DNA of 64,000 nucleotides, taken from assembly GCA_947630285.1 (NCBI GenBank), contig CANRHD010000004.1, positions 1 through 64,000 on the forward strand. Reading direction: 5' to 3'. Shown in pieces: positions 2,295 to 17,086 of this stretch (positions are counted from its first letter, which is position 1; every line of letters begins with the position of its first letter). Made by a program: the position numbers and the translations under genes. The notes beneath the pieces are model-generated. The model had not been told where the DNA came from. It saw nothing but the letters and a program-made list of their open reading frames with translations, and did not search any database. The stretch comes from an uncultured Clostridia bacterium. GTDB taxonomy: Bacteria > Bacillota > Clostridia > Oscillospirales > Acutalibacteraceae.

Positions 2295-2354
2295 TGTTTG
2301 CATTTTCTGTCGTTAGAATGAAACTTTATAAATATTATAACGAGGTGCTCGATT

Positions 2355-4202
2355 ATGATAAAAACTGTATCACAAACAACAATCGCTGATGTGTTTTCTA
2401 TAACCAGCGATAAAACATATAAGATTCCGAAATACCAACGTGAATATACTTGGGGAATCAAAGAATGGGATGCACTCTTTAACGATGTGACCGAAAATGA
2501 TTTTGGTTACTTTCTCGGCTCCTATATTTGTGTGAACAGTAGCACGATAAACGGAACAGTATTAGAGGTAATTGATGGTCAACAGCGTTTTTCCACAATC
2601 ACCTTATTACTGGCAGCTCTTTACTCCGAACTTGCTAAACATAAAACCGAAATGGACGAAGATGACTTGAGTGAGCTTTCTAATTTGAGAAATGAGCTTG
2701 CGAACAAAAAGCAGAAATTTACTGCTTCTGGTGGTAAAGTCACGGAATATAACCAGCGACTTTTGCTTCAGAAACAAAACTCAAACGATGAAGACTATTC
2801 TTTCATTCTTTCTGATAATGGCATTATTACACTTAAACTTTCTAAGCCTTCTAATTTCGGTAACAGAAGAATTGCAAAGGCTTATCGTCATTTTCAAAAA
2901 TTGATTGATGATGAAGTACAGGAAATCAAAACAGATAATCCCAATATTACTGACATAGGGGCGCTATTCCAGATTGTAAGAAAATTTGAAGCGGCAGTAT
3001 TGGTCGGAATTGAGGTTGATACCAATAAAGATGCCTATATGCTCTTTGAATCTCTCAATCACAGAGGTGTTCCGCTTTCTGCTCTTGATCTGATTAAAAA
3101 CTCTCTTATTGCACAGGCTGAAAACTCTGCTGACGCAGATAATGCTTATGAACAATGGAAACAGATATTAAAAGCCGTTGGACAAGATGACTACTCTGTT
3201 CAGGAACGATTCTTCAGACAATTCTATAATGCATTTAGAGATGAATTGAATGCGCCCTACAAATCTGCTGACAAGAAGTATTATCTTGGATATTTAGCAA
3301 CAAGAACAACTTTGATTGATATCTACGAAAAAATGATTAAGAGCGATTATCGAGTCCTTTTGGAAAACCTTTCAGAAAAAGCAAACAAATACTCTATCAT
3401 TGTAAATAATACCGATGATGAGTATGTTTACACAACAAGCATGCAAAACTTAGCAAGAATCTCCGGCGCTCCTTCATATTTGTTGCTGATGTATCTATTG
3501 ACTAATCAAGAAATGCTCCGCCTTTCAGATGAGAACATAAAAGCTATCGTTGATATTCTTATCGTTTTCTTTGTAAGAAGAAACTTAACCGATGTTCCGA
3601 ACACTCGCAAACTTACTCAACTGTTTATTGATATTATTGTAACGATTAAATTTGAGAGTGGAAACAAAATCGTTGAAAGTATCAAAGATATGCTCAAGTC
3701 TGTTTCGGCAACGGATGAAGCCTTTGAAGAAAAACTTCGTGGTCCCATTTATGACGAAAACCCCGAAGCAACCCGATTTGTTCTGTGCAATATTGAAGCA
3801 CAACACCAAACCAAGGAGATATATTTCGATTTGTGGTCGAGAGACACAAGCAACAAGTATGTTTGGACTATTGAGCATATCTTCCCCGAAGGTGAAAATA
3901 TCCCCAAAGAATGGGTTGATATGATTGCTGACGGTGATAAGGCAAAGGCAATCCAAATCAGAGCCGATTATGTACATACCCTTGGCAACTTAACGATCAC
4001 CGGGTATAATCAGAATCTTTCCAACATGTCTTTTGAGCATAAGAAAGACAGAAAATCAAAGGACAAGACAAAAGATATCGGTTACAGAAACGGCTTGTTC
4101 TTAAACGAGGATGTTGTAACTGAAACAGAATGGACTGTTGATAAAATAACCACAAGAACTGACAAGATTGTAAAAATACTTCTTAAAATGTATAAGTGGT
4201 GA
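2355..4202 (+). CDS. GmrSD-like type IV restriction protein (DUF262 + DUF1524)
   Basis: 615 residues with the two-domain architecture of GmrSD/BrxU-type modification-dependent restriction factors. The N-terminal DUF262 region has KIPKYQREYTWG (about residue 23) and VIDGQQRFSTITLL (about 75), the DGQQR motif being the nucleotide-binding signature. The C-terminal DUF1524 region has an HNH-type segment, with TIEHIFPEG near residue 505 and an Asn-rich HTLGNLTITGYNQ stretch near 540. Family members use NTP hydrolysis to cut modified (often glucosylated or hydroxymethylated) phage DNA. GAGGTG precedes ATG 2355. It sits immediately before a methyltransferase-rich cluster but with a ~115-base gap, so it is probably a separate transcription unit. 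Confidence 0.85.
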   Translation: MIKTVSQTTIADVFSITSDKTYKIPKYQREYTWGIKEWDALFNDVTENDFGYFLGSYICVNSSTINGTVLEVIDGQQRFSTITLLLAALYSELAKHKTEMDEDDLSELSNLRNELANKKQKFTASGGKVTEYNQRLLLQKQNSNDEDYSFILSDNGIITLKLSKPSNFGNRRIAKAYRHFQKLIDDEVQEIKTDNPNITDIGALFQIVRKFEAAVLVGIEVDTNKDAYMLFESLNHRGVPLSALDLIKNSLIAQAENSADADNAYEQWKQILKAVGQDDYSVQERFFRQFYNAFRDELNAPYKSADKKYYLGYLATRTTLIDIYEKMIKSDYRVLLENLSEKANKYSIIVNNTDDEYVYTTSMQNLARISGAPSYLLLMYLLTNQEMLRLSDENIKAIVDILIVFFVRRNLTDVPNTRKLTQLFIDIIVTIKFESGNKIVESIKDMLKSVSATDEAFEEKLRGPIYDENPEATRFVLCNIEAQHQTKEIYFDLWSRDTSNKYVWTIEHIFPEGENIPKEWVDMIADGDKAKAIQIRADYVHTLGNLTITGYNQNLSNMSFEHKKDRKSKDKTKDIGYRNGLFLNEDVVTETEWTVDKITTRTDKIVKILLKMYKW

Positions 4203-4265
4203 TTATTTCAGTACGTTGTACGACTCATATCTTTTCTCTTAAACCATAATTAATTGGCACTATTA

Positions 4266-4295
4266 TTGCGAAATTTGTAGATTTCGATAGATAAT
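4266..4295 (+). promoter_or_regulatory. Possible promoter of the modification/HerA-NurA cluster
   Basis: TTGCGA at 4266-4271 and GATAAT at 4290-4295 are spaced by 18 bases. A small inverted repeat (GAAAT-TTGTAG-ATTTC) lies in the spacer, where a regulator could bind. AAGGAG at 4303-4308 serves the ATG at 4318. The match is imperfect, so this is tentative. Confidence 0.35.
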
Positions 4296-4317
4296 ATAGA
4301 GTAAGGAGTTAACCACG

Positions 4318-6759
4318 ATGGTATCAAATATTTGGAATAAGGATATTCCTGTAGAAAAAAGTTCCTACTTATGTGATGATGATATCACATTCTTTAATCT
4401 TGAGAAATTCAAGCATGATGAAAGCAAACTCACTATGATTGATTTGTTTTGTGGAGCAGGCGGTTTTGCGGTTGGTTGCTCTTGGGCTGGATTTGAATCA
4501 GTACTTGGTATAGATCATTTTGAACCTGCTATGCGCACATGGTCTTATAACCATCCAAATGCCATTGGATGTTTAGGCAATATTACAAAGATAGAACCTA
4601 AAAAAATCAAAGAATTGCTCCAAAGTAAAGGAATTCACAAAATTCATTTAATAACTGGCGGAGTACCTTGCCAAGGTTTTTCTATTGCCAATAGGAAACA
4701 CAATGATAACGATGAACGTAATTTCTTGTTTTTAGAGTACATGAAATTCGTCAAAGAGTTTGATCCAGATTATATAATTCTTGAAAATGTATCTGGTATG
4801 AGAAGCACCGCCGGAGGACAATTCGAAAAAGATATTAAAGAGTTTATGAATTCACTTGGATACACCACTACAGTAGATTTGTTAAATGCTGCTGATTTTG
4901 GTGTTCCTCAGATTCGTCAAAGACTGATTTTTGTCGGTGTTAAGCAAGCAAGAGGACTCACCTCTGAGTATATCTTTCCTGTTGGAAAATTCAAAAACAA
5001 TTATCGTACCGTTCATGAAGCTATTTCAGATCTTCCCGAGTTAGAAAACAACGAGGAAATTTGCAAGTACACTAAACCCGCAAAAAGTGAATACCAAAAG
5101 TTGATGAAAGGCAAGGGCAAAATAACAAGCATAACCCCACCTAAAAAACTAACCAATCATATTTCTCCCAATCATCCACAGGAAACAATCAAAAAAATTG
5201 CTTCAACTGAACCGGGTAAACCTATGTATCCGAAATTTAAGCAAAGAATTCGTTTACGTGAAAACGCTCCAAGTCCCACACAGCTTGCTGGCGGTATCCG
5301 TCCGCAATTCCAATTTGGGCATCCTACTCAGCCAAGAGGCCTAACTATAAGAGAGAGAGCAAGAATTCAAAGTTTTCCTGATAGCTATGTTTTTCTTGGC
5401 GGTATTGTGCAAGAGCGTGTGCAAACTGGCAACGCTGTACCGCCGCTCCTCATTTACAATGTAACGCTCCCCATTGCAGAAGATATCAGAAGGAAGGAAA
5501 AAAAGAAAATGTATAGAGTTTGGTATAGTACAGAAAGCTTTGCAGATTTCATAATAGATAATACTGAACTAAAGCATTACAAAACTACAAAATACAAGCT
5601 TTTAGAAAGTGATGCGAAAACCACTAAGTTTCATTATATGCCTGATCATATTAAAAAAATATTGGTTTTAGATGCGCCAGATTTAATAATTGAAAAGATA
5701 TATGAAACATATTCTGAGCCCATATTATCTATTGAAATTTCCAAAGAAGCTGGTACAGGACATAATGTTTTTCAACGTTTTGCTAGGATTGTTTCAGCCG
5801 TTGAAAATGGCGTTCCGTCTTTTTACATATATCCAAAAGCTAAAATCATTACAAGAGACACAAAAACTGATTGGGATCCAATAAATCCTTTGATTTTCTA
5901 TAGCTTAGAAGAATTGATGAGCATTTTTGATATGCCTGCGTTGTTTTACTATTTTCCTAATGATTATGACAATTCTCCGTGCTATAAGAATTCGGATTAT
6001 CTTGAGAGCCAAGGAATCATTTATAGCAAGAATATTAAGTATGCCGATTGCCCTGATGAAGCTAATAGCGAAATGCAAGCTATGTTTACTGCGATTAACA
6101 CATTGGTCGGTGATGTTGAGATGAACGGTGCAAAAAAAGCTTGTCGTGATATAATTAAAAACAAATTATACAAGGCACGCCGAAAATGGATGCAAAAGCA
6201 GTATTACGATTTATCAAGCGGAAAAGACTATTTAGAACTATCGCCGAACACATCAACCATCGTTGTTCCAACTGAATATCTAATAAACTATTTACGCAAA
6301 AACAAGTATAAAAAATCCAAATACGAATCCTTGTTACTCCAAAGAAAAGAAACGGTCATTTATATGCCGCAAACAAACCAATTTCGTTCTGACCCGTATG
6401 CAGGTTGTCTTACTGCCATAGATTATATGCAATGTCGTACTGGAACTGGAAAAACGTTTGAAAATAGAGAGAAAAATCTTGTTTTTTCATTCGGAAAAAT
6501 TGTAAAAGATGATAATAAGAAAACCATATGTGTCAATGGTTCTTTGTCTATTGAGACTTTCTGCAAAAATGTAATAAGTACTGAAAAGAAAAATTTACTT
6601 GGTAAAAAATACAAAGAACTCAAAAAAGAGCAAATTCCACAATATTATATGCAAATTAGATACGGTTCTACTTTTTCAAAGAATAAGTCAATTCGTATTT
6701 TTTCTACATTTGCTGATGCGATTTTGTTTAAAGATGGTGCTCTTTGGAGAGATAGTTAA
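4318..6759 (+). CDS. C5-cytosine DNA methyltransferase fused to a putative nuclease domain
   Basis: 813 residues. Residues 1-397 are a C5-methyltransferase: motif I DLFCGAGGF at about 42, motif IV GGVPCQGFS with catalytic Cys118, the ENV motif near 158, QIRQRLIFVGV (motif VIII) and a terminal TGNAVPPLL. Residues 398-813 (from the internal ATG at 5509) are clearly paralogous to the separate protein that follows at 6771, and are the same length, 416 residues. That half has DAPDLI followed by an LSIEISKEAGTGHN stretch, resembling a PD-(D/E)XK core with an atypical lysine position; I infer a cognate restriction nuclease. AAGGA motifs just before 5509 could allow the nuclease half to be made alone. 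Recognition site unknown. Confidence 0.8.
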   Translation: MVSNIWNKDIPVEKSSYLCDDDITFFNLEKFKHDESKLTMIDLFCGAGGFAVGCSWAGFESVLGIDHFEPAMRTWSYNHPNAIGCLGNITKIEPKKIKELLQSKGIHKIHLITGGVPCQGFSIANRKHNDNDERNFLFLEYMKFVKEFDPDYIILENVSGMRSTAGGQFEKDIKEFMNSLGYTTTVDLLNAADFGVPQIRQRLIFVGVKQARGLTSEYIFPVGKFKNNYRTVHEAISDLPELENNEEICKYTKPAKSEYQKLMKGKGKITSITPPKKLTNHISPNHPQETIKKIASTEPGKPMYPKFKQRIRLRENAPSPTQLAGGIRPQFQFGHPTQPRGLTIRERARIQSFPDSYVFLGGIVQERVQTGNAVPPLLIYNVTLPIAEDIRRKEKKKMYRVWYSTESFADFIIDNTELKHYKTTKYKLLESDAKTTKFHYMPDHIKKILVLDAPDLIIEKIYETYSEPILSIEISKEAGTGHNVFQRFARIVSAVENGVPSFYIYPKAKIITRDTKTDWDPINPLIFYSLEELMSIFDMPALFYYFPNDYDNSPCYKNSDYLESQGIIYSKNIKYADCPDEANSEMQAMFTAINTLVGDVEMNGAKKACRDIIKNKLYKARRKWMQKQYYDLSSGKDYLELSPNTSTIVVPTEYLINYLRKNKYKKSKYESLLLQRKETVIYMPQTNQFRSDPYAGCLTAIDYMQCRTGTGKTFENREKNLVFSFGKIVKDDNKKTICVNGSLSIETFCKNVISTEKKNLLGKKYKELKKEQIPQYYMQIRYGSTFSKNKSIRIFSTFADAILFKDGALWRDS

Positions 6760-6770
6760 GGAGTGTAGAA

Positions 6771-8021
6771 ATGTACAGAGTTTGGTACAGCACAGAAAGT
6801 TTTGCTGATTATATTATTAATCACACCTTACTTTCTCAACAGAACAATGTTATTAAAAATAAAATGTATGAAAGCGATGCAAATAATCCTACTCGCTTCC
6901 ATACAATGCCTGACCATATTAGAAAAATTTTGTATCTTGATGCTCCTGACCTTATTGTAGAGAAAGACAACGAGCCTATTTTTTCTATTGAAGTTACAAC
7001 TGAGGCTGGTACCGGTCACAATGCCTTTCAGCGTTTTGCCAGAATAGCGGCTGCTGTTGAAAATAGTGTTCCCGCTTTTTATATTTACCCTGAAGGGGCG
7101 ATAATAACAAGACGTAATGCAGCTCCTCGATGGGATGTTATTAATCCTGCTATTTTTCAAGCTCTTGAATCTGTTATGAGCATTTATGACATTCCGGCTC
7201 TCCTTTATTATTTTCCGTCTGACATATCTAATTATTTGAACAATCCTCAAGATGCCCCTCACTTAGGACAAAAAGGTCTCAAGTTCGATGCCGATATTAT
7301 TAACTATTCGGGGTGTCCGGATTCAACAGATAATAATATGATTCAAATGTTTGCAGCTCTTGATGAGGTGATATTATCAACCGAAGCATATGGCGTGTTG
7401 GCAGGTCGAGAAAGACTTTTGAGAAATATCACCATACGTGACCAACGTAACAAAATGCAAGAGCAGTTCTTTGTTAAAGCAAACGGACGTACTATCAATG
7501 ATATGTCTCCCATATCAGCCGTGCAAGTGATACCTTCAGAATATCTGATCAATTATTTATCTAAATATGAAGATGCCCGCTATTCTATTGGCGAATTGTT
7601 GCGTTCAAGAGAAAATACTGCCATTTATCAAGTTAATGCACGCTTCCGTGGAGATCCATATCCTGGAGCTTTAGCTGCTATTGATTACTTGAAGTGCAGA
7701 GAAGGAAAAACGTTTGAAGATAGGAGAAATAATTTAATCTTGGTGTTTGGTAAGGTAGAAGTTGATACTGAAAATCATACTTTAAATATTATTAATGAAA
7801 ACAATTCTTCTATTAACGACTTCTTCAATGACGTTAAAAATAGCGAGCGACACAACTTATTGACCAGAGATTATAACGAATTAGAAAACAAGGATATCCC
7901 AAGATATTTGATGCAAGTAAGATATGGTTCTACTTATTCAAAAGTCAAGCATATACGAGTGTTCTCTTACTTTGCAGACGCAATCTTGTTCCCTGATGGC
8001 TCACTTTGGAGGGATGCATAA
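6771..8021 (+). CDS. Stand-alone paralogue of the fused nuclease-like domain
   Basis: 416 residues, starting MYRVWYSTESFADYI, aligning end to end with residues 398-813 of the preceding protein. The most conserved block (about 62-120) has DAPDLIVEK, then IFSIEVTTEAGTGHNAFQRFARI and VPAFYIYP. The PD ... E-x-T pattern is like a PD-(D/E)XK fold whose usual lysine is replaced, so nuclease activity is an inference. Another shared block is the DPYxGxLxAIDY segment near residue 300 and the C-terminal VRYGSTYSK/SYFADAILF. AAGGAG before ATG 6771 gives good initiation 11 bases after the fusion gene's stop. It may form hetero-oligomers with the fusion protein. Confidence 0.65.
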   Translation: MYRVWYSTESFADYIINHTLLSQQNNVIKNKMYESDANNPTRFHTMPDHIRKILYLDAPDLIVEKDNEPIFSIEVTTEAGTGHNAFQRFARIAAAVENSVPAFYIYPEGAIITRRNAAPRWDVINPAIFQALESVMSIYDIPALLYYFPSDISNYLNNPQDAPHLGQKGLKFDADIINYSGCPDSTDNNMIQMFAALDEVILSTEAYGVLAGRERLLRNITIRDQRNKMQEQFFVKANGRTINDMSPISAVQVIPSEYLINYLSKYEDARYSIGELLRSRENTAIYQVNARFRGDPYPGALAAIDYLKCREGKTFEDRRNNLILVFGKVEVDTENHTLNIINENNSSINDFFNDVKNSERHNLLTRDYNELENKDIPRYLMQVRYGSTYSKVKHIRVFSYFADAILFPDGSLWRDA

Positions 8022-8467
8022 TGACCGAAGAACAAGTAACAAAAGCATTGTTGCAGTATTTAACTGATAACGGTTGGCATATTGTTTGTTTTGACTTTCC
8101 ACAAAGTGGAACAGGTAAAGTTTTACACCCTAATAATGCCGACGGTGAAAAAAATAAAGATTCAATTATTCCTGATATAGTAGCCGTAAAAAACAATATA
8201 TCTTTATTTTTTGAAAACAAAGATAGGTTTTATTTACCCGACTATAAAAAGATTAATGAATTGATTGTAGATAATCAATATACAAACGCCATAGATAAAT
8301 TGCTTTTTGATTATGAAATAGATAACACATTCTATGGTATTGGTCTGCCAACAGAAAAGCATAAAGAAAAATCAAAAGAATCTGCTTACTTAGTGAACTT
8401 TATATTAGGTGTAAATGCCGATAGGTCTGTTGAAATTTTATACAACCCAGAAAAGATAGTTTTATAA
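8021..8467 (+). CDS. Small PD-(D/E)XK-like protein
   Basis: 148 residues from ATG 8021, whose A is the last base of the preceding stop (TAATG overlap), with GGAGG at 8009-8013. An upstream in-frame TTG at 8006 is less likely because it would place the ribosome site inside the gene. The segment IIPDIVAVKNNISLFFENKDR (about residues 47-67) fits a PD-x(n)-(D/E)-x-K nuclease core. I do not recognise a named family. Its translational coupling between the nuclease paralogue and the second methyltransferase suggests a restriction, nicking or repair role in the same system. Confidence 0.6.
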   Translation: MTEEQVTKALLQYLTDNGWHIVCFDFPQSGTGKVLHPNNADGEKNKDSIIPDIVAVKNNISLFFENKDRFYLPDYKKINELIVDNQYTNAIDKLLFDYEIDNTFYGIGLPTEKHKEKSKESAYLVNFILGVNADRSVEILYNPEKIVL

Positions 8468-8479
8468 GGATTTGAAAAA

Positions 8480-9421
8480 ATGCGTGTATGCAGTTTGTTT
8501 AGTGGTATAGGTGGAATAGATTTAGGATTTAAACAGGCAGGATTTGAAATTGTGTGGGCGAATGAATTTGATGAAAATGCAGCAAGGACATATCGCTACA
8601 ATTTCAAAGATTGTAATCTTGTGGTAAAAAATATCAAAAAAGTTAATATTGATACTATCCCTGATTTTGATGTGCTTACGGCCGGGTTTCCATGTCAGCC
8701 ATTTTCATCTGCTGGTATGCAAAAAGGTTTTCAAGACACAAGAGGAACTCTGTTTTTCGAGATTGTTAAAGTAGTTGAAAGAAAACGGCCAAAGGTCATA
8801 TTCCTTGAAAATGTAGCAAACCTCTTGGGGCACGATGACGGCAAAACATTCTTGACAATATATAATGCACTTGTCCCGTTTGGATATAGCTTTAAATATC
8901 AAGTTATGGATGCATTAGACTATGGTAATATTCCTCAAAGAAGGTCAAGGATATTTATTGTTGCTTTTTTGGATGAGCAAATGTGTGATAGATTCAAGTT
9001 TCCCGAAAAGATTGAGCGAACAGTTCAATTAAATGATATTTTGATTAGGTCAATTAAACATGATGATTCATACTATTTTCATGAAGATAGCAAAGGTTAC
9101 TACAAACTTAAACAAATAGTTAAAAGTAAATCTGTAATCTATAGGTTTTATGATTCAATAGATGTTTATAAATCATATCGTGTATGTCCAACACTACTAG
9201 CAAGCATGGGAAAGTTTCCAGATAGCATTCCAGTAATTCTAGATGACTTCGGAATAAGAAAAATTACCCCTTATGAATGTCTTGCTTTGCAAGGATTTCC
9301 AAAAGAATTCAAATTTGCGCCCAAAACACCACTTGTTAAAGCTTATAAACAATGTGGAAATAGCGTGGTTGTGCCAGTAATCAGGGAAATCGCCAAACAA
9401 ATAGCAATAATAATATTGTGA
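8480..9421 (+). CDS. C5-cytosine DNA methyltransferase (second, stand-alone)
   Basis: 313 residues, the usual size of a minimal C5-methyltransferase. Motif I SLFSGIGGIDLGF starts at residue 5, motif IV GFPCQPFSS has catalytic Cys72, motif VI ENV lies near 112, motif VIII IPQRRSRIFIVAF near 150, and the terminal motif X region has QCGNSVVVPVI. It would transfer a methyl group from S-adenosylmethionine to C5 of cytosine. It is only distantly similar to the fused enzyme and has a shorter, different target-recognition region, so it probably methylates another sequence or the other strand of an asymmetric site. It starts 12 bases after the previous stop within the operon. Confidence 0.9.
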   Translation: MRVCSLFSGIGGIDLGFKQAGFEIVWANEFDENAARTYRYNFKDCNLVVKNIKKVNIDTIPDFDVLTAGFPCQPFSSAGMQKGFQDTRGTLFFEIVKVVERKRPKVIFLENVANLLGHDDGKTFLTIYNALVPFGYSFKYQVMDALDYGNIPQRRSRIFIVAFLDEQMCDRFKFPEKIERTVQLNDILIRSIKHDDSYYFHEDSKGYYKLKQIVKSKSVIYRFYDSIDVYKSYRVCPTLLASMGKFPDSIPVILDDFGIRKITPYECLALQGFPKEFKFAPKTPLVKAYKQCGNSVVVPVIREIAKQIAIIIL

Positions 9422-9430
9422 GGATATAAT

Positions 9431-10366
9431 ATGTCAAAATTTGAAGAAGAAATAATTGATCTAATTGGCGCTCAGGCTGAAAATGATCAAGTTGACTTTA
9501 AAAAAGAATACTATTCCAAAGAGAAAAAATACGATCTTATAAAAGATATTGTTTCTTTTGCAAACAATACAAAACCAAAGGATAAGTATATCGTTTTTGG
9601 AATAGAGAACTCTTCTTGGGTGCCTACCGGCATAAACCTATCGTCTTTACCAGATATATCTGAGATTAATGATTTGCTTCATATATATGTGGAACCTTTT
9701 ATTGATGTAGAAATTGGGCATTTTGACTACAAAGGTATAACCATTGGGTTCATCAGAATTCCTCATAATGGATTAAATCGACCTTATATAATTTCAAAAG
9801 AATACAGTAAAAATAAAGTAACTTCTTTACGCAAAGGTGAGATTTATATTCGAAAAGGAGCAAGCAATTTCATTTGTGATAGAAACGACCTTGATGATAT
9901 ATATTGCAATAGAGGTTCATTAAATATTGACTTTTATACGACAGAAATAATTATCAGTAACATTCGAATAACTAACAAATCGTGCCTAATGGGGCAAGTA
10001 AGATTTATACTCCAAAACAATACACCCAAGACAATTGTTTTTGACGATGTTAAAGTGTATATCCATTGCGGAAGCAATCTTTTAGAACATACTACAGAAT
10101 TTATAGATGATCAAAAAAACATTATTAATAAACTTCCTGACATTTTATCACATGTTCCAATTCAGCTTTCTTCAGGGGATTGTATACAAAAGACTGCCTT
10201 TTTTTCAATATCTGAATCTGCCGCAATGAATCTAAGAAAAAAAGATTCAAATTCAATAAAAGCTTCCATTAAAATTCGTGATGTCTTGAATCATATGTAT
10301 CAGAATGAATTTTCAGCCGTATCTTTAAATTTTTCTGATGACATATTGAGGAAATGGGGATGCTGA
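9431..10366 (+). CDS. AlbA_2 / Schlafen-type domain protein
   Basis: 311 residues. The N-terminal ~145 residues match the AlbA_2 (Schlafen AlbA) fold: VDFKKEYYSKEK near 22, the VSFANNTKPKDKYIVFGIENS block near 40-60, and LRKGEIYIRKGASN near 136-150. Proteins with this domain bind nucleic acid, and some have nuclease or ATP-dependent regulatory activity. The C-terminal half (~155-311) is an uncharacterised beta-rich region with no motif I recognise. It starts 9 bases after the methyltransferase stop and ends just before the adenine methyltransferase, so it belongs to the same transcription unit. Its task there (regulator, specificity factor or effector) is unknown. Confidence 0.7.
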   Translation: MSKFEEEIIDLIGAQAENDQVDFKKEYYSKEKKYDLIKDIVSFANNTKPKDKYIVFGIENSSWVPTGINLSSLPDISEINDLLHIYVEPFIDVEIGHFDYKGITIGFIRIPHNGLNRPYIISKEYSKNKVTSLRKGEIYIRKGASNFICDRNDLDDIYCNRGSLNIDFYTTEIIISNIRITNKSCLMGQVRFILQNNTPKTIVFDDVKVYIHCGSNLLEHTTEFIDDQKNIINKLPDILSHVPIQLSSGDCIQKTAFFSISESAAMNLRKKDSNSIKASIKIRDVLNHMYQNEFSAVSLNFSDDILRKWGC

Positions 10367-10397
10367 TATGGAAAAAGAACAGAAAGGAGAAATGGAA

Positions 10398-11285
10398 ATG
10401 AATTATTCACCATTAAGATACCCTGGTGGAAAAAGTAAAATCGCACCATTTGTATCCCTGCTTATCGAAAAAAGCAACCTTGATGAATGTACATATGTCG
10501 AGCCTTTTGCCGGCGGCGCTGGAGTAGCATTGTCACTTTTATTTGAAGGAACCGTTACAGATATTGTAATTAACGATTATGATAAGGCCATTTATTCTAT
10601 GTGGAAAGCTATCCTTACGGAAACGGATACTTTTATAAATCTTGTTTGCAATACACCATTAACGATTGATGAATGGAAAAAGCAAAAAAATATATATACA
10701 AATGAAAATAAAAAATATTCATTAGCCTTAGGATTTTCCACATTTTATCTTAATAGGACAAATCGTTCGGGAATATTAGCGGCAGGTCCCATAGGCGGAT
10801 ACAATCAAACTGGTAATTACCTAATTGATGCAAGATACAACAGGGAATCTTTAGTGGATAGAATTGAAAAAATAGCCGCACACAAAGCTCATATCCATTT
10901 GTACAACAAAGACATAGAAAGCTTTATTAAAAACTATTTGCCTAAATATCAAAAAAAAGCTTTTGTCTATTTTGATCCACCCTATTACAACAAAGGAAAA
11001 GAGTTATATAAAAACTTTTTTGTTCACAATGATCACAAACGCATCTCAAAATTAATAAGAGAACTAAATTGTTTTTGGATGGTTACTTATGATGATGTAG
11101 ATGAAATATGTGAACTATATAAAGATTATGAATGCAAGCAGTTTGATTTAACTTATAGTGTGGCCAACTCTGGCAAAAAATCTGAAATAATGTTTTTGAG
11201 CGATAAAAAACTTTGGCCGCATGACGATGAGTTGAAACAAAAAAAAATACGGATTAATATCAGAAAGCGGTGTAAAGATGAATAA
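10398..11285 (+). CDS. D12-class N6-adenine DNA methyltransferase (Dam-like)
   Basis: From ATG 10398 the protein has 295 residues and begins MNYSPLRYPGGKSK, which carries the PGGK S-adenosylmethionine-binding motif. VEPFAGGAGVALSLL follows (FxGxG motif), and the catalytic DPPYY lies near residue 192, all typical of the Dam/DpnM/EcoRV-methylase family. AAAGGAG at 10383-10389 is 8 bases from this ATG; the upstream ATG at 10368 would add 10 residues with a poorer site. It would make N6-methyladenine. The last 8 bases overlap the start of herA, implying coupled translation. Having adenine and two cytosine methyltransferases in one operon is unusual. Confidence 0.88.
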   Translation: MNYSPLRYPGGKSKIAPFVSLLIEKSNLDECTYVEPFAGGAGVALSLLFEGTVTDIVINDYDKAIYSMWKAILTETDTFINLVCNTPLTIDEWKKQKNIYTNENKKYSLALGFSTFYLNRTNRSGILAAGPIGGYNQTGNYLIDARYNRESLVDRIEKIAAHKAHIHLYNKDIESFIKNYLPKYQKKAFVYFDPPYYNKGKELYKNFFVHNDHKRISKLIRELNCFWMVTYDDVDEICELYKDYECKQFDLTYSVANSGKKSEIMFLSDKKLWPHDDELKQKKIRINIRKRCKDE

Positions 11286-13311
11286 AATATCAATTAATAA
11301 CTTAATCGATCAAGATCCGCTGTTAAAACTGGTTCAGCCTGATAACTTTATTGGTTGGATATACTCTATGGATTATGATTCTGCATTAGTTGTGACAAAC
11401 GATGCTTGGAAAGCCAAAGTAAATGGAGTTCCGCACAACAGTTTTTTGATTGCATCTTCTTTTAATCCAGCAAACTATGCAAGTGCAAATCAAATGGAAA
11501 AAGAAGTGATTTTGTTAAGAGTTATTGGAGCCTGCAAATTACCTCAAGATGATGATATGATTCGTACAAAAATCGATAATTATCAAAACCAAACAGATCT
11601 ATATTTGAGCGATGATGATAAAGGCTACGATCCTATAACACAAAATAGATTACAGTTTGGAGGGTTGAAATGTCGTGTATTAGGCACATTCTATATGAAG
11701 AATAGTGAACTAAATATGGGGAGCGATATCGAGTCTTTTTCCGTTTCAATGCGTATGGGAGTATATATGCCTAAATCAGATGCTTTATCTCTGATCGTTA
11801 ATTATGTCGATCCGATAAGGAAAAATCGTTTTAAAGAAGAATTATCGGCTTTAGGCATCAACAATAATCTTCTTCCTTTTGAAATTGGAACTGTCAGGTA
11901 TACATCAACAGATCGATTACATCGCGCAAATGAAGCTGATAAAATACCTTTTTACATTCAGCCTTCCGACTTTTTAGCTCGCAGAACTGCCGTTTTAGGT
12001 ATGACTCGAACCGGCAAATCTAATATGATTAAGCAAACTATCTCTGTTGTTAAGAATATTGCGGATAGCTGTGATTTACCAATTGGTCAATTGGTTTTTG
12101 ATATTAATGGTGAATATGCAAACGCAAATAAACAAGATAATGGTTCTATTTCCGACGTTTATTCCGACGGGTGCGAAAGATATCGAATGATCCCTACCGA
12201 TGGTTTTTCACATTTATTGAATAATTTTTATTCTGAATTACAAGAGGGATTATCTATTCTTGGCGACTTAATTAGGGAAGCGAAAAAAGATGGATCGGCC
12301 GATATTGACACTTTTTTGGGAATGTCTTTAGAACGTCCTGATCCCATTGAAGAAAAAGGAGAATATAAACGCTGGCAAGTAAAAACTGCTCTTTATAAAA
12401 CTCTTCTTAAAAAAGCAGGATATGCCTACACTGGAACTTTTTCTGTTAAATTCGAAGCAAACAAAAAAATTAGAGAAGCTGTCGATGCTGTAATAAATGA
12501 AAATGTAGAGCCCGGTTGCGAAGTTCATATTAATCCTAACGACTCCCTTTCTTTTGAAGAAGCATTTAAGTGGTTTACTGCAGCACGAACCGCAAACAAA
12601 GATAAAAAAACCAAAGCAACAGGCAAGCTAAAATCGAGTAGCGGTTCGAATTGGTTCGATGAAGAATGCATAGCCATGCTAAATCTGCTTGACGGTCATA
12701 ACAATAACGATGCTTATATCCGAGGATTTAGAACACTCGAATGCGGTCGTCCTTACCATACCCCATATAGAACAAAAGATGTATGTGAAGAAATATATCA
12801 GCATCTTATCAAAGGCAAAATAGTTATTTTGGACTTATCGGTTGGACAAGCTCAATTAAGAGAACGTATTAGTAAAAGAATTGCAAAATATGTCTTTGAT
12901 AACTCAATGAATTGCTTTACTAGTGGGAAGAATCCCCAAAATATCGTAATTTACATTGAAGAAGCGCACAATTTAATTGGAAGAAATATGGATTTGTCAG
13001 AAACTTGGCCTCGTCTGGCAAAGGAAGGGGCAAAGTATAAAATCGCTCTCGTATATGCAACACAAGAAGTATCTTCAGTTCATCCTAATATTCTCGCTAA
13101 TACAGAAAACTGGTTTATTTCTCATTTGAATAGCGAAAAAGAGATTTCTGAACTTGCAAAATTCTATGATTTTGCAGACTTTAAACAATCATTACTTCGT
13201 TCGCAAGATGTAGGTTTCGCAAGAGTAAAAACTCTATCAAGCCCTTTTGTAGTTCCTATTCAAATAAATAAATTTGATCCTAAAAGAATAATTTCCCAGA
13301 AAGGAAAATAG
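11278..13311 (+). CDS. herA: HerA-like DNA translocase/helicase ATPase
   Basis: 677 residues with the HerA/FtsK-superfamily layout: an N-terminal beta-barrel (HAS-like) region up to ~180, Walker A GMTRTGKSN at 241-249, and Walker B IVIYIEEAHN with Glu561/Glu562. A region from ~400 to 470 is probably an inserted helical segment. HerA forms hexameric rings that thread or translocate double-stranded DNA and work with the nuclease NurA. Its ATG overlaps the adenine methyltransferase by 8 bases and nurA follows 2 bases after its stop, so the three are surely co-translated. In archaea the pair performs end resection; in bacteria HerA genes are common in defence islands. Confidence 0.88.
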   Translation: MNKISINNLIDQDPLLKLVQPDNFIGWIYSMDYDSALVVTNDAWKAKVNGVPHNSFLIASSFNPANYASANQMEKEVILLRVIGACKLPQDDDMIRTKIDNYQNQTDLYLSDDDKGYDPITQNRLQFGGLKCRVLGTFYMKNSELNMGSDIESFSVSMRMGVYMPKSDALSLIVNYVDPIRKNRFKEELSALGINNNLLPFEIGTVRYTSTDRLHRANEADKIPFYIQPSDFLARRTAVLGMTRTGKSNMIKQTISVVKNIADSCDLPIGQLVFDINGEYANANKQDNGSISDVYSDGCERYRMIPTDGFSHLLNNFYSELQEGLSILGDLIREAKKDGSADIDTFLGMSLERPDPIEEKGEYKRWQVKTALYKTLLKKAGYAYTGTFSVKFEANKKIREAVDAVINENVEPGCEVHINPNDSLSFEEAFKWFTAARTANKDKKTKATGKLKSSSGSNWFDEECIAMLNLLDGHNNNDAYIRGFRTLECGRPYHTPYRTKDVCEEIYQHLIKGKIVILDLSVGQAQLRERISKRIAKYVFDNSMNCFTSGKNPQNIVIYIEEAHNLIGRNMDLSETWPRLAKEGAKYKIALVYATQEVSSVHPNILANTENWFISHLNSEKEISELAKFYDFADFKQSLLRSQDVGFARVKTLSSPFVVPIQINKFDPKRIISQKGK

Positions 13312-13313
13312 AA

Positions 13314-14693
13314 ATGTCAGATTATAACATCGATAGAACCTCTCATATTGACATCGTGCAAAACCCTGATGTAAAAACAATTTTGGATAACTGTGACTAC
13401 ATGAGAGAACCTACTGGGAATGAAATAAATGATATCATCAGTCATTTTGTATCCGTCCCTGATAGGGAATTTAGTTTACCTCAAAAAGTAATATCTATCG
13501 ATGGCAGCAATTACGAAGCCAGTATTCGAAAAGAACTACCATTTACGAGAATAGGCTTTGTAAAAATAGGTAATTTGTTAATAAAGCGAAATGATTTCAA
13601 AAAAATATCTGATGGTAATTTTGTTAATCCGTTTGAAGTGTCTAAAATAAGTAAAAATAATTCTTCCCTCTCATTTGCACTACCAAGTACAAATATGTGT
13701 TATAAAGGTGAGAATAATGTTCGTGATAGCTTCAGAAGAACTATGGATGAAGCATTGTATAATTGTAGGTTTTCTGAATCTGATGCATCAACAAGTCTAA
13801 GAACTACTTTATTTCGTATGGCTGAATTGCGGTTAGAAGGTTCGAATAATAATGGAAGTATACTTCTATTTAAATGTCCTTCGTGTGGCACCGAAAACCT
13901 CGAATTATGGGATATCCCAGAAACACAACATTGTCCGCATTGCGGAAATGTCATTTATCCTTCAGATTGTTTGCGAATATGGGAAGACATTAGCGATTCG
14001 GGATCTAACCAATCTGCATTAACAAGATTCACAAATGCCCTTATGCATTTGTTGGTTGTTCATTATATAAGATTGCTTAAAGAAAAAAATCCGGATTCTT
14101 ATCTAAATTCTTTATCTGATTTGTGTTTTATAATCAATGGTCCTTTAGCTGTATTCGGCAATCCTGCATGGTTACACTCATCTATTTTAAAATACTTATA
14201 TGATATTAATAAAGAACTAACAGATAGTGGAAGACCTCCTATCATTGTTATGGGTGTATTAAAAACGGGCGCAATATGTGATTATTATAAAATGATAGGT
14301 TCTTTTGTTGCTAAAAACTCGATATTTTCAGTTTCAGATGGTTTCCGAAATAAATATATTAATTTTGATCGGCGACCTTCGGCTACAACTTTTGGTGCCG
14401 AAACCTATTATGGTCAAGATTTTCTGCTAAAAACAGAAACCGGAAAATTGTTTGTCTTTAATGCATTGTTACCGTTTAGAGACAAACATAACAAAACTTG
14501 TTTTAAAGATGAAAAGGCTAATTTGCTTAATTATAGTAATATAGGAACATACGCAAAACTGATTGAAGAATTTGAATGTGATCTTGATAGTGCATCGCTC
14601 GTTCCGATTGCACTTGCAAAGAAATACACAACAATCACTTTAGAACCTGGTGGAAAAGTTCTTGATTTACTTGCCAAGAACGCATTAAATTAA
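13314..14693 (+). CDS. nurA: NurA-domain nuclease with zinc-ribbon insertion
   Basis: 459 residues. The NurA signature ISIDGSNYEA is near residue 62, the Asp being a predicted metal ligand, and the later family blocks are seen as FIINGPLAVFG near 276 and VMGVLKTGAI near 312. Between them (about residues 186-225) is a CPSCG ... CPHCG zinc-ribbon not expected in a minimal NurA. The family consists of 5'-3' exonuclease/endonucleases stimulated by HerA. The second motif has Asn where an Asp-Gly-Pro is often found (NGP), which could weaken metal binding. It starts 2 bases after herA. I am fairly confident of the NurA assignment from the motif set and the herA neighbour. Confidence 0.75.
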   Translation: MSDYNIDRTSHIDIVQNPDVKTILDNCDYMREPTGNEINDIISHFVSVPDREFSLPQKVISIDGSNYEASIRKELPFTRIGFVKIGNLLIKRNDFKKISDGNFVNPFEVSKISKNNSSLSFALPSTNMCYKGENNVRDSFRRTMDEALYNCRFSESDASTSLRTTLFRMAELRLEGSNNNGSILLFKCPSCGTENLELWDIPETQHCPHCGNVIYPSDCLRIWEDISDSGSNQSALTRFTNALMHLLVVHYIRLLKEKNPDSYLNSLSDLCFIINGPLAVFGNPAWLHSSILKYLYDINKELTDSGRPPIIVMGVLKTGAICDYYKMIGSFVAKNSIFSVSDGFRNKYINFDRRPSATTFGAETYYGQDFLLKTETGKLFVFNALLPFRDKHNKTCFKDEKANLLNYSNIGTYAKLIEEFECDLDSASLVPIALAKKYTTITLEPGGKVLDLLAKNALN

Positions 14694-14706
14694 AAAGGAG
14701 GACCTA

Positions 14707-16365
14707 ATGATTATCAAAAATATTGAAGTTGAAAAATTCAGATCTATTAGCGGAATTTCGTTTGATCTCGGTAAAAAATTAACTGCTATTGCAGGAAGAA
14801 ACGCAACTCAAAAAACAACTTTGTTGGGTATGTTAGGACAACCTTTTTCCATTTCAAAAAATTCTCCATTGTATGGTTGCTCTACAGTCGATGGCTACAA
14901 TTTCAAATCTCAGTTCAATGAAAAATTTAAACTATCAATTAATTATGAGCCTATTGGGAGTCACAAATGGACTTTAAACTTTCATAACAAAGAATATTAT
15001 CTAAATAATAAAATTACCATACATAGTATTCCAAGAAAGCAAAAGGGCAAACCAGACACCATACGTTTTTGGAATACAGATGGTAAAGCGAAAGGAGCAG
15101 GATATGTTCAATTGCCTGTTTATTATTTAAGTTTGAGCAGATTGCTTCCAATAGGAGAAAGTTCAAAAACAAACACATTGAATATTAACTTGACTGCTGC
15201 TGAAAGTAAATATTGCGTGAAAGCGTATAGAGAAATTTTGTCTATTAATCAGATGTCAGGAACACCTATCGTTAGCGCCGAAAAAGGTATAGGCAAGCAA
15301 GTATACGCAGGTATTAACGATGGAATGCACGACATTTTCACTAACTCCGCTGGTGAAGGTAATGTTTCAAGAATTATTTTAGCCGTTCTTTCCTTTAAAC
15401 GACTGAAAGATAAATATAAAAAAGATTATAAAGGGGGTATTTTATTAATTGATGAGTTGGATGCTACCTTATATGGATTTTCCCAAAAGAAGTTGTTAAA
15501 ATACCTATTAGACTCCGCAAAAGAATACAAGATACAAATCATTTTCACAACCCATTCGCCTATTGTATTAAATGAGATGTATAAGCTTCAAAAAGAGGAA
15601 ATTAAAAGATCAGGAATAAAACCCGAACAATCTGCATACGATACTGCTATAGTATACCTTACTCCAACCTATAAGGAAGATGGTAGTCGTATGATCAAAG
15701 CAGAAAACATTTTAGGTTCAACCAGACTTAACGAAGTCGTTAACGATATAAACCTTGTGCCGTTGTCAAAAACAAAAAGAATTAACGCATATTTTGAAGA
15801 TGAACACGCTTTGATGTTTGGAACATATTTATTAAAACATTATTATTCGATAAACTTAGAAAACTATATTAATTTTATTGATGTTAATTTGGGATGGACT
15901 AACTATTTACAATTATATAAAAAGAACATTCCAGAATTCATTAATAGTATTATTAACTTAGATGCTGATGTTCCTGACAAAAAAGAATATCGTGAAGAAA
16001 AGCAAGTGGTTGAAAATTCTTCTAACATTCTTTTTCTGCCGCTAGAAATCGAGAAAGGGTTATTCTCTTTTCTAAAAAATCATGCTAATTATATAAACTT
16101 TGAAACAAATTATTCTAATGTTTCGACATTAACTTATGATATCTGCTTTAATGATTGGCCATTAGAAGTTGAAATCTACAAAACAAATGATTTTAAAAGA
16201 TGGTACGAAACCATAACAAACTTTTTAGGTGGACCAGAATTGTTGTTTAAATGTTGGATTGAATCAAACGAAGATGATGCCAAAAAATATGCTAAGCGGT
16301 TCGTTGAGATCTACAATTTTCTCTCGGATATTTTTGAATTAGATCAAATACCATCTATTGAGTAA
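14707..16365 (+). CDS. OLD-like AAA ATPase with C-terminal TOPRIM nuclease domain
   Basis: 552 residues. The N-terminus (IEVEKFRSISGISFDL) is that of RecF/OLD-type ABC ATPases. Walker A reads GRNATQKTT at 30-38, with Gln35 in place of the usual Gly; Walker B LLIDELD is at 246-252, and FTTHSPIVLNE is the switch/H-loop. The C-terminal half looks like a TOPRIM: YFEDEHA at 362-368 supplies the glutamate and LDADVPD at 418-424 the Asp-x-Asp pair. OLD-family proteins (for example GajA) are DNA endonucleases gated by ATP. It is the last gene of the cluster, with AAAGGAGG before ATG 14707 and a terminator right after the stop. Confidence 0.75.
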   Translation: MIIKNIEVEKFRSISGISFDLGKKLTAIAGRNATQKTTLLGMLGQPFSISKNSPLYGCSTVDGYNFKSQFNEKFKLSINYEPIGSHKWTLNFHNKEYYLNNKITIHSIPRKQKGKPDTIRFWNTDGKAKGAGYVQLPVYYLSLSRLLPIGESSKTNTLNINLTAAESKYCVKAYREILSINQMSGTPIVSAEKGIGKQVYAGINDGMHDIFTNSAGEGNVSRIILAVLSFKRLKDKYKKDYKGGILLIDELDATLYGFSQKKLLKYLLDSAKEYKIQIIFTTHSPIVLNEMYKLQKEEIKRSGIKPEQSAYDTAIVYLTPTYKEDGSRMIKAENILGSTRLNEVVNDINLVPLSKTKRINAYFEDEHALMFGTYLLKHYYSINLENYINFIDVNLGWTNYLQLYKKNIPEFINSIINLDADVPDKKEYREEKQVVENSSNILFLPLEIEKGLFSFLKNHANYINFETNYSNVSTLTYDICFNDWPLEVEIYKTNDFKRWYETITNFLGGPELLFKCWIESNEDDAKKYAKRFVEIYNFLSDIFELDQIPSIE

Positions 16366-16366
16366 C

Positions 16367-16402
16367 AAAACGCTCCCAGAATGCAATTACTGGGAGCGTT
16401 TT
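16367..16402. terminator. Strong terminator closing the defence cluster
   Basis: A 13-bp perfect stem (AAAACGCTCCCAG with CTGGGAGCGTTTT, 10-base loop) begins one base after the OLD-like gene's stop and ends in T-rich sequence. It could work in both directions. Confidence 0.85.
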
Positions 16403-16552: not shown

Positions 16553-16582
16553 AGATTAAGTGCAGATAATATTTTTGTTTTC

Positions 16583-16954
16583 TCATACGAACACCACCTC
16601 TGCGTTGACTGTTTCGGTTACTCGCTCACGGATGTTATTCATCTTCCGCACCCAAGCCATTTGGTCGCCTGCTTTGAGCTGTTCTGTCACACCTTCCTTT
16701 TCGGCGTATTCTTTTACCAGCCGAGAAAAGAGGGATTGTGCTTCTTCCTCTACATCGGCGAGGTGGAAATGGAGTTTGCCGGAAGTGAGCAAATTGTAGT
16801 ACAGGACTTTGTGGTATTGCTTCAAGTATCGCAGTCGGCGCTGGCCGTAAATGCCGATAGGCCGTTCTTCCTCGGGTAGTAAGTAAAGATTCGGTAGGCA
16901 GTAGTCACCTTGCTTTATGTATGTGCCGCTGGATTGTTCGAATATTGATTTCAT
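16583..16954 (-). CDS. tnpV: TnpV family transposon-encoded protein
   Basis: About 123 residues from ATG 16954 (MKSIFEQSSGTYIKQGDY). The reading frame extends 16 codons further upstream, but AGGAGGT 8 bases before this ATG fixes the start. The conserved blocks GDYCLPNLYLLPEEERPIG, GIYGQRRLRYLKQ and LLTSGKL identify TnpV, a small protein found on many Firmicutes conjugative and mobilisable elements. Its function is unknown. Together with DUF6809 downstream of it and the decayed copy behind it, it marks this section as mobile-element DNA. Confidence 0.85.
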   Translation of the reverse strand: MKSIFEQSSGTYIKQGDYCLPNLYLLPEEERPIGIYGQRRLRYLKQYHKVLYYNLLTSGKLHFHLADVEEEAQSLFSRLVKEYAEKEGVTEQLKAGDQMAWVRKMNNIRERVTETVNAEVVFV

Positions 16955-17086
16955 ATAGTAAAACCTCCTATTGTGCTCAAAACGATTTCCCAAAATGCTC
17001 AATTACAAAAAATACAACGAATATTCCGCTGTTCATGACACTTTTTACGACGTACATTGAAAATTAGGCGTTTTTTCGAAATAGAA

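Follow-up and report, generated by a model that had tools for sequence, protein, structure and literature searches.

A PD-lambda-5-type adenine methyltransferase linked to HerA-NurA and OLD-like proteins suggests a modular restriction-like system in an uncultured Clostridia bacterium

PD-lambda-5 is an E. coli prophage system with proven anti-phage activity, reported to affect all but one of ten tested phages and described by its authors as a compact RM+Abi (restriction-modification plus abortive infection) system (PMC9519451). It was cloned in a strain without the mrr region (PMC9519451), which suggests that its methylase is live. The HerA-NurA pair of archaea and Deinococcus is described as acting in DNA end resection (PMC9960219), and HerA is also described as the motor of defence complexes (PMC11291478, PMC10853773, PMC12839542). 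In Thermus, the ICETh1 operon encodes a Type IIG RM enzyme, NurA (377 aa), the HerA/FtsK-type TdtA (568 aa) and an N4/N6 methyltransferase (MTase); NurA and TdtA are reported to be needed for DNA donation, and the methylase to have a minor effect on transfer. Here we describe a nine-gene block (4318..16365, + strand) in a stretch of 64,000 nucleotides (the window; positions 1 to 64,000 of contig CANRHD010000004.1, assembly GCA_947630285.1) from an uncultured Clostridia bacterium of the Acutalibacteraceae, which a first-pass annotation made from the sequence alone had read as one composite defence system. The block consists of two systems side by side, module A (genes 1-4) and module B (genes 5-9). 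Module B is probably a restriction-like system around a D12 MTase of the PD-lambda-5 type, in which HerA-NurA would attack unmarked DNA and an OLD-like protein would serve as a second effector or back-up.

Module B starts with gene 5 (9431..10366, +), an AlbA_2 (Schlafen-type) accessory protein (PF04326, 3e-14), and gene 6 (10368..11285, +), a D12 N6-adenine MTase of the PD-lambda-5_B type (D12 Pfam family, 3e-23). They are followed by gene 7 (11278..13311, +), a predicted HerA-type DNA translocase ATPase of 677 aa (HerA/DUF87, PF01935, 3e-9), gene 8 (13314..14693, +), a NurA nuclease of 459 aa with a CxxC...CxxC zinc-ribbon-like insert (PF09376, 1e-7, over Pfam's cut-off), and gene 9 (14707..16365, +), an OLD-like ABC ATPase and predicted TOPRIM nuclease (AAA_15, 4e-14). 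Ten proteins of the window were scanned against Pfam and PADLOC, the PADLOC results being the matches listed. Gene 6 matched PADLOC PD-Lambda-5_B at 1.2e-119 over profile positions 1-284 of 291, and PD-lambda-5_A was absent among the PADLOC matches listed for the ten proteins. The best score of HerA against the NCBIfam HerA equivalogs was 63.5 bits, compared to a cut-off of 800 (NF042943). The motif D203-P204-P205 of D12 is kept in 60/60 sequences, and both the HerA Walker A residues G246-K247-S248 and the pair E561 and E562 in 84/84. NurA D63, kept in 60/63, may be the catalytic aspartate by analogy with D53 of drNurA rather than by alignment. The window thus has adjacent HerA and NurA genes with these residues kept.

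In GTDB genomes, a search with a profile built from eight HerA proteins gave 470 relatives, and the 80 best were retained; together with 7 of 21 viral loci (the remaining 14, whose matches covered only about residues 547-669, were left out) they gave a survey of 87 loci, or 86 after L096, a duplicate of L017, was dropped. NurA lies 3' of HerA in 67 of the 86, in the next position in 65 and one further in 2, and a D12 MTase is present in 59 of these 67 HerA-NurA loci: phmmer identified 56 as gene-6-type, with 68 bits or more in each case, L029 and L102 were found by tblastn with a D12 set, and L101 by tblastn and Pfam. In 48 of 57 phmmer matches the D12 gene immediately precedes HerA on the same strand, and it is retained despite a moved position in L042, L050, L053, L058, L067, L072 and L073. 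The gap is at most 30 bases between D12 and HerA in 44/52 and between HerA and NurA in 63/65, measured on the starts given by a greedy rule taking the longest open reading frame (ORF), which may set starts too early, so that gaps look shorter, and which missed the D12 of L029. As background, 32 of the genomes, together about 129 Mb, hold 46 D12 matches, so that about 0.008 would be expected in a 22-kb locus. This is a lower bound given rounded genome sizes and a search that missed the D12 of L050's own locus; a tenfold higher background would alter nothing. Module B thereby shows the genetic linkage of MTase and nuclease expected of restriction-modification (R-M) systems.

Nineteen loci lack NurA. 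In four of them, which do have D12, the contig is cut within 0.3 kb of the end of HerA. The remaining 15, all Verrucomicrobia by record titles (with Limisphaerales loci presumably belonging there), have no D12 and form a negative control (L052, L057, L059, L060, L062-L066, L069, L071, L078, L079, L091 and L095; the sequence spans 0.3 kb before HerA in L065 and 0.4 kb after it in L052). The HerA of these 15 loci is possibly a housekeeping branch, and an aspartyl-tRNA synthetase family gene lies near it in 7 of them. Short matches to the NurA query in 4 of the 15 fall within the HerA gene or at its end and were judged spurious. Counting D12 in 60/67 NurA loci against 0/15 NurA-less loci, Fisher's test gives p = 2e-11. 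The stricter count is 59: L098 is inside the 60 and the D12 tree, and it was excluded from the 59 because its candidate D12 is a generic match of 24.8 bits, five genes away and on a very long branch. Also outside the 59 are L038, which has an N6_N4 MTase four genes down and, about 10 kb downstream, a diverged D12; L043, with a 51%-identical D12 about 13 kb downstream of HerA, behind Type I genes; L083, with a 44-residue D12 remnant; L087, with an N6_N4 MTase five genes upstream; and L075 and L099, where the contig is cut before HerA and within NurA, respectively. An N6_N4 MTase stands instead of D12 beside HerA-NurA in L015, Halorarius L008 and Deferribacter L012. On the Deferribacter megaplasmid (L012:9952-13750), HerA is interrupted by an IS200/IS605 TnpA-TnpB insertion.

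The distance matrices of HerA and NurA correlate with r=0.91 and those of HerA and D12 with r=0.46, compared to a permutation maximum of 0.24. The HerA and NurA trees share 33/47 splits with 10 strongly supported conflicts, whereas the HerA and D12 trees share 18/47 with 46 conflicts. HerA and NurA thus travel as a pair, and the methylase is exchanged more often. Bins and genomes that hold the set carry the labels of about a dozen bacterial phyla, and two further bins are archaeal, so that it is not a local oddity, and two temperate Vibrio phages carry HerA-NurA and D12 beside an integrase. NurA is patchy, being found in 3/295 genomes of the order, own genome included. E. coli genomes searched with the Vibrio-phage HerA-NurA-D12 stretch gave no match. 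PADLOC models were matched by 7/10 hand-picked neighbour proteins, including HsdS, SoFic-like and Tiamat TmtA.

Several local features accompany the set. AlbA_2 relatives occur in 12/87 loci (11 once the duplicate L096 is removed), where they immediately precede D12 and HerA, and gene 5 was rejected as a universal sensor on this count. HerA is annotated as two ORFs in one of the Vibrio phages (L006:1309-3502) and is a single intact ORF in its sister (L007:1309-3501). Downstream of NurA in L019, L029, L033, L034, L038, L042 and L044 lie a UvrD-type helicase (~890 aa) and a PD-(D/E)xK_1 protein (~285 aa), an AddAB-like extension seen in these 7 loci, with the helicase only in L035.

Gene 9 has an ABC ATPase that a PDB profile search relates to PtuA (6e-12) and to the OLD-family structure 6p74 (3e-9), and its PADLOC matches to GajA, PtuA and AriA are weak and partial. 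Residues K36, D249, E250, H283, E364, D365, D419 and D421 are each kept in 19/19 sequences, so that both the ATPase and the TOPRIM acidic residues of the OLD family are present at the sequence level. The OLD-like AAA+TOPRIM reading of the first-pass annotation is thus supported by Pfam and the PDB profile for the ATPase, and the TOPRIM part is predicted from the invariant E364, D365, D419 and D421. Among 391 genomes of the class, five others hold a gene 9 relative at 1e-20, each with a gene-6-type D12 next to it; searching the examined 3-20 kb around them with the window proteins found no HerA or NurA. The OLD protein can therefore be the sole effector, and the D12 MTase is the usual partner of the OLD gene, a partnership not foreseen in the earlier reading. 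Placing gene 9 within the HerA-NurA core was rejected, because the closest relative of module B lacks gene 9, and the gene was assigned to D12 instead. Four loci stack OLD on D12-HerA-NurA, namely the window, L092, L094 and, in the opposite direction, L047; apart from the window, they belong to a Desulfuromonadales bin and two Rhizobiales. The OLD tree places the stacked loci in three separate unions, with L047 on a long branch, and the HerA-NurA label clusters no more than by chance. Since the window OLD groups with D12-OLD pairs of its own class (55%, 51%) and the window D12 with the D12 of a HerA-NurA locus (84% to L017), OLD most likely joined an existing D12-HerA-NurA operon.

A search with gene 6 across the phylum found a gene-6-type D12 in 17 other genomes of 348, with internal stop codons in 2/17 matches. 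Their D12 neighbours are OLD in 8, HerA-NurA in 4, PD-lambda-5_A in 2 and none recognised in 3; L156, one of the four HerA-NurA cases, duplicates the contig of L019, and the tree omits it. Besides the two Vibrio phages (L006 and L007), 6 of 23 phage records were read for their D12 contexts, and the partner is OLD in 3 (one convergent), PD-lambda-5_A in 2 and a disrupted gene in 1. PD-lambda-5_A stands beside D12 in L159, L164, L174 and L176, and the PD-lambda-5_A matches are 1e-171, 7e-143, 3e-147 and 1e-42. On a D12 tree of 78 rows, 11 partner changes are needed, compared to a minimum of 2 and a shuffled mean of 17.8, and well-supported branches force at least 4 changes for HerA-NurA, at least 5 for OLD and at least 3 for PD-lambda-5_A. 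Compared to shuffled labels, those of HerA-NurA and OLD are more clustered, and that of PD-lambda-5_A, with four rows only, is not. This is a quick tree, in which L098 is a very long row and the OLD rows include five found via gene 9.

We read these partners as effectors that can replace one another: PD-lambda-5_A, the translocating nuclease HerA-NurA and an OLD-type ATPase/TOPRIM nuclease, two of which are stacked in the window. On balance, we lean towards one adenine MTase family of the PD-lambda-5_B type being common to at least three unrelated effectors that are swapped or stacked, as a modular restriction class in which the link would be the DNA mark and not a conserved protein contact. 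In the titles and abstract starts listed, mostly outside subscription journals and bioRxiv, no description of D12-HerA-NurA or D12-OLD was found. Iyer et al. 2004 reportedly treated HerA neighbourhoods, and may have mentioned methylase neighbours earlier.

The boundary between the modules is defined from both sides, because module A is seen without genes 5-8 and module B without genes 1-4. None of genes 5-8 occurs in the examined stretch of the three module A relatives, L120, L125 and L126 (7.3 kb in L126). The closest relative of module B, G159 (also L005 and L017), has 77% DNA identity over 9450-14677 and carries AlbA_2-D12-HerA-NurA without genes 1-4 and without gene 9. Directly upstream of module B in this relative (L005:2131-6087) lie a PLD-ResIII-DUF3427 helicase and then two short genes, which resemble a NUDIX hydrolase and a peptide deformylase by eye. 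In L125, DNA matches the window at 2327-5957 and 6769-9381, and again at 16564-16956 beside a TnpV gene (75% identity). The place of genes 5-9 is taken there (L125:11430-17009) by a TIR-like gene (484 aa; a weak match under Pfam's cut-off), a helicase (910 aa), a 179-aa gene and a SEC-C protein (295 aa), perhaps an alternative defence cassette. Genes 5-9 thus occupy an exchangeable slot, because the same island, with GmrSD, genes 1-4 and the TnpV flank, carries another cassette in L125.

By its architecture, module A is read as an ordinary-looking Type II-like R-M system with a two-subunit endonuclease. Gene 1 (4318..6759, +) is a C5-cytosine MTase (residues 1-398; PF00145, 4e-65) fused to an extra copy of a restriction endonuclease (REase) large-subunit-like protein, its C-terminal half being a paralogue of gene 2 (49% identity over about 427 aa). 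Gene 2 (6771..8021, +) is the REase large-subunit-like protein itself (R protein; 416 aa; PADLOC 'Type II nicking endonuclease', 5e-8). Gene 3 (8021..8467, +; ATG at 8021) encodes a small PD-(D/E)xK protein of 148 aa, assigned from its invariant residues P51-D52 ... E65-N-K67 (4/4 sequences) and with weak similarity to Hjc (0.0077 in one search, 0.59 in another), and gene 4 (8480..9421, +) encodes a second C5-cytosine MTase (PF00145, 2e-91). Genes 2 and 3 hit no Pfam family over cut-off, and a gene 2 profile found no relative in PDB. Searches with genes 2 and 3 found relatives in three other genomes, G268 (L120), G343 (L125) and G420 (L126), that is, in 1/294 other genomes in one search and 2/390 in a second; plasmid searches with genes 2 and 3 gave no match, and a viral-contig scan with gene 2 found nothing useful.

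The order C5-MTase, R protein, small PD-(D/E)xK protein is kept in all three relatives, with gene 2 relatives of 93%, 71% and 67% identity directly 3' of the C5-MTase in L125, L126 and L120, respectively. L125 is the closest (GmrSD 93%, MTase 95%, R 93%, small protein 92%, second MTase 84%) and the only one with a gene 4 relative, in the same place; none was seen in L120, nor in L126, where the contig ends nearby. The extra R copy within gene 1 is found only in the window, all three relatives having a single copy, and the MTase and R frames overlap as different frames in L125 and L120 and form a single frame in L126. All parts of a Type II R-M system for an asymmetric site, two MTases and a predicted PD-(D/E)xK endonuclease, are in the window, and the two C5-MTases are read as serving the two strands of such a site. 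BtsI is a heterodimeric Type IIS enzyme (PMC2909958). Module A resembles BtsI-like Type IIS enzymes in having a large and a small subunit and two MTases, which suggests an asymmetric site, and differs in its C5 MTases and in the extra large-subunit copy fused to gene 1; the likeness is one of architecture.

The nine ORFs lie on the + strand with neighbour spacing of -8 to +13 bases and two overlaps, and a terminator-like hairpin follows gene 9 at about 16367..16402 (+), with a folding energy of -20.8 kcal/mol compared to a shuffled mean of -7.9 (z-score -5.5); a consensus terminator scan confined to loops of 3-8 did not list it. The co-directional, tightly packed arrangement, the terminator directly 3' of the last gene and the families of the two C5-MTases, adenine MTase, AlbA_2, HerA and NurA (by Pfam) therefore hold as first annotated. 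Linkage goes beyond chance for genes 6-8 and for genes 6 and 9 in the surveys, and for genes 1-3 in 3/3 relatives. A conserved synteny of the whole ordered block fails as one system, and two sub-blocks are conserved instead. As far as the sequence goes, a defence-type locus of modification plus destruction with HerA-NurA and OLD as likely effectors stands, and its unity as a single nine-gene composite does not; likewise, of the three MTases proposed as self-marks of one system, the adenine MTase goes with HerA-NurA and OLD and the two C5-MTases belong to module A. A GmrSD-type protein (2355..4202, +; PF03235 3e-34, PF07510 2e-15), a neighbour common to the window and L125, sits 115 bases upstream of gene 1, and the TnpV transposon protein (16583..17002, -; PF14198 2e-44) marks the far side of the slot. 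The block is AT-rich, with a GC content of 0.32-0.35 in 2-kb windows over 4001-16000, compared to 0.38-0.49 in those from 16001 on. An empty-site search in one other genome of the genus gave only a 45-base right-flank match, and hence no sign of insertion. Upstream of GmrSD (588-1831) are two Fic/DOC-domain ORFs, the second of which ends at 1831, shortly past its Fic match, and is perhaps a broken copy.

Gene content, conservation, linkage, repeated partner exchange and the kept catalytic residues suggest how module B might work. The D12 MTase would methylate adenines at a short site in host DNA, and HerA-NurA would translocate on and degrade DNA without that mark, by analogy with the archaeal and Deinococcus complexes (PMC9960219). 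The OLD-like ATPase/TOPRIM protein could act as a further effector that responds to this mark too, or as a back-up for cases where HerA-NurA fails, and AlbA_2 may be a lineage accessory. As for sensing, we think that the effector itself reads the mark, with no docking on the methylase, because three unrelated effectors serve one MTase family and the MTase tree is loosely tied to HerA. Several points weigh against the restriction-like reading. Keeping the best 80 of 470 HerA relatives favours loci like that of the window, and most survey loci are metagenome bins, whose organism labels can be wrong. HerA-NurA occurs without D12 in L028, and three Nostocales plasmids carry HerA-NurA with no D12 found in the examined stretch (L009, L010 and L011, around 11600-15290, an XRE-HerA-NurA operon and possibly a methylase-free variant). 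HerA is split or cut in L016, L053, L073 and L006, and NurA in L033. A search of the loci gave no sensor of the unmarked site, AlbA_2 occurs in only 12/87 of them, and the protein activities at this locus are predictions. The reported roles of ICETh1 and of HerA-NurA elsewhere also count here, and each leads to an explanation of its own.

From ICETh1 comes the idea of a DNA-transfer (transjugation-like) set, in which HerA pumps DNA out, NurA trims it and the methylase marks the element. The reported need of NurA and TdtA for donation, in an operon that also holds a Type IIG RM enzyme and an N4/N6 MTase, speaks for it, as does the TnpV gene adjoining the locus. We nevertheless regard transfer as unlikely, since the gene order and protein sizes differ (677 and 459 aa here), two temperate phages carry the set, PD-lambda-5_A, whose part in defence is proven, partners this type of MTase, and the ICETh1 methylase is reported to affect transfer only slightly. 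A repair set with the methylase and OLD gene as bystanders, modelled on the end resection of archaea and Deinococcus (PMC9960219), seems to us improbable: NurA is patchy, in 3/295 genomes of the order, D12 is found in 59/67 loci against the expected 0.008 or so per locus, and HerA scores far under the NCBIfam repair-HerA cut-offs. Least credible is one composite system of all nine genes, very doubtful despite the tight spacing in one direction and the modification-plus-nuclease type of both modules; it was rejected because modules A and B are apart in every other genome where one of them was seen, and L125 has another cassette in the slot of genes 5-9.

Closer to the restriction-like reading is the explanation that HerA-NurA-D12 is the working system and gene 9 an abortive-infection back-up upon inhibition of restriction, as in PARIS, and not a second effector. 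PARIS is reported to sense an anti-restriction protein (PMC12839542), the OLD-type ATPase of gene 9 has weak PADLOC matches to GajA, PtuA and AriA, and PD-lambda-5 itself has been termed RM+Abi by its authors (PMC9519451). Since gene 9 relatives accompany D12 with no HerA-NurA seen (5/5 class relatives, 3/6 phage records), we hold this explanation to be possible and the less favoured one.

If the restriction-like reading of module B is true, many bacterial HerA-NurA pairs would have a defence role with a self-mark, the proven PD-lambda-5 system would be tied to two further effector types, and restriction effectors would be exchangeable around a constant methylase. The repeated change of cutting partner that the relatives suggest for this methylase would then be a new way of building antiviral systems. 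Annotation tools could also call whole systems, where PADLOC gave only PD-Lambda-5_B and generic HerA and OLD-type matches.

Compared with described systems, the ten window proteins contain no Pfam domain of the BREX/DISARM hallmarks PglZ, BrxC, DrmA or DrmB, as first annotated, and the BREX/DISARM models among the PADLOC matches listed are MTase types only, such as DrmMII. Gene 9 shares an OLD-type ATPase and TOPRIM acidic residues with Gabija, Septu, PARIS and retron OLD-type ATPases, but its partner is a D12 MTase and not GajB, PtuB, AriB or a reverse transcriptase, its family matches are weak and partial, and Pfam found no UvrD helicase family, as in GajB, among the ten proteins. With HerA-SIR2, HerA-DUF4297 and the HerA/FtsK capture systems, the window shares HerA as motor; its nuclease partner is instead NurA, a word absent from the text of both HerA/FtsK capture-system papers, and it has in addition a live-looking adenine MTase. 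Like the archaeal and Deinococcus pair, it has an adjacent translocase and nuclease with key residues kept, but it is tied to an adenine MTase, patchy, and found in phages and islands, with a zinc-ribbon-like insert in NurA and a HerA far under the repair-family cut-offs. Thermus ICETh1 has in common NurA, a HerA/FtsK ATPase and an MTase on an integrated element, in its case also with a restriction enzyme, and is set apart by MTase class, gene order and protein lengths. PD-lambda-5 shares the D12 MTase family, matched by gene 6 over its full length, and differs in that the effector place of the window is held by HerA-NurA and an OLD-like ATPase instead of PD-lambda-5_A.

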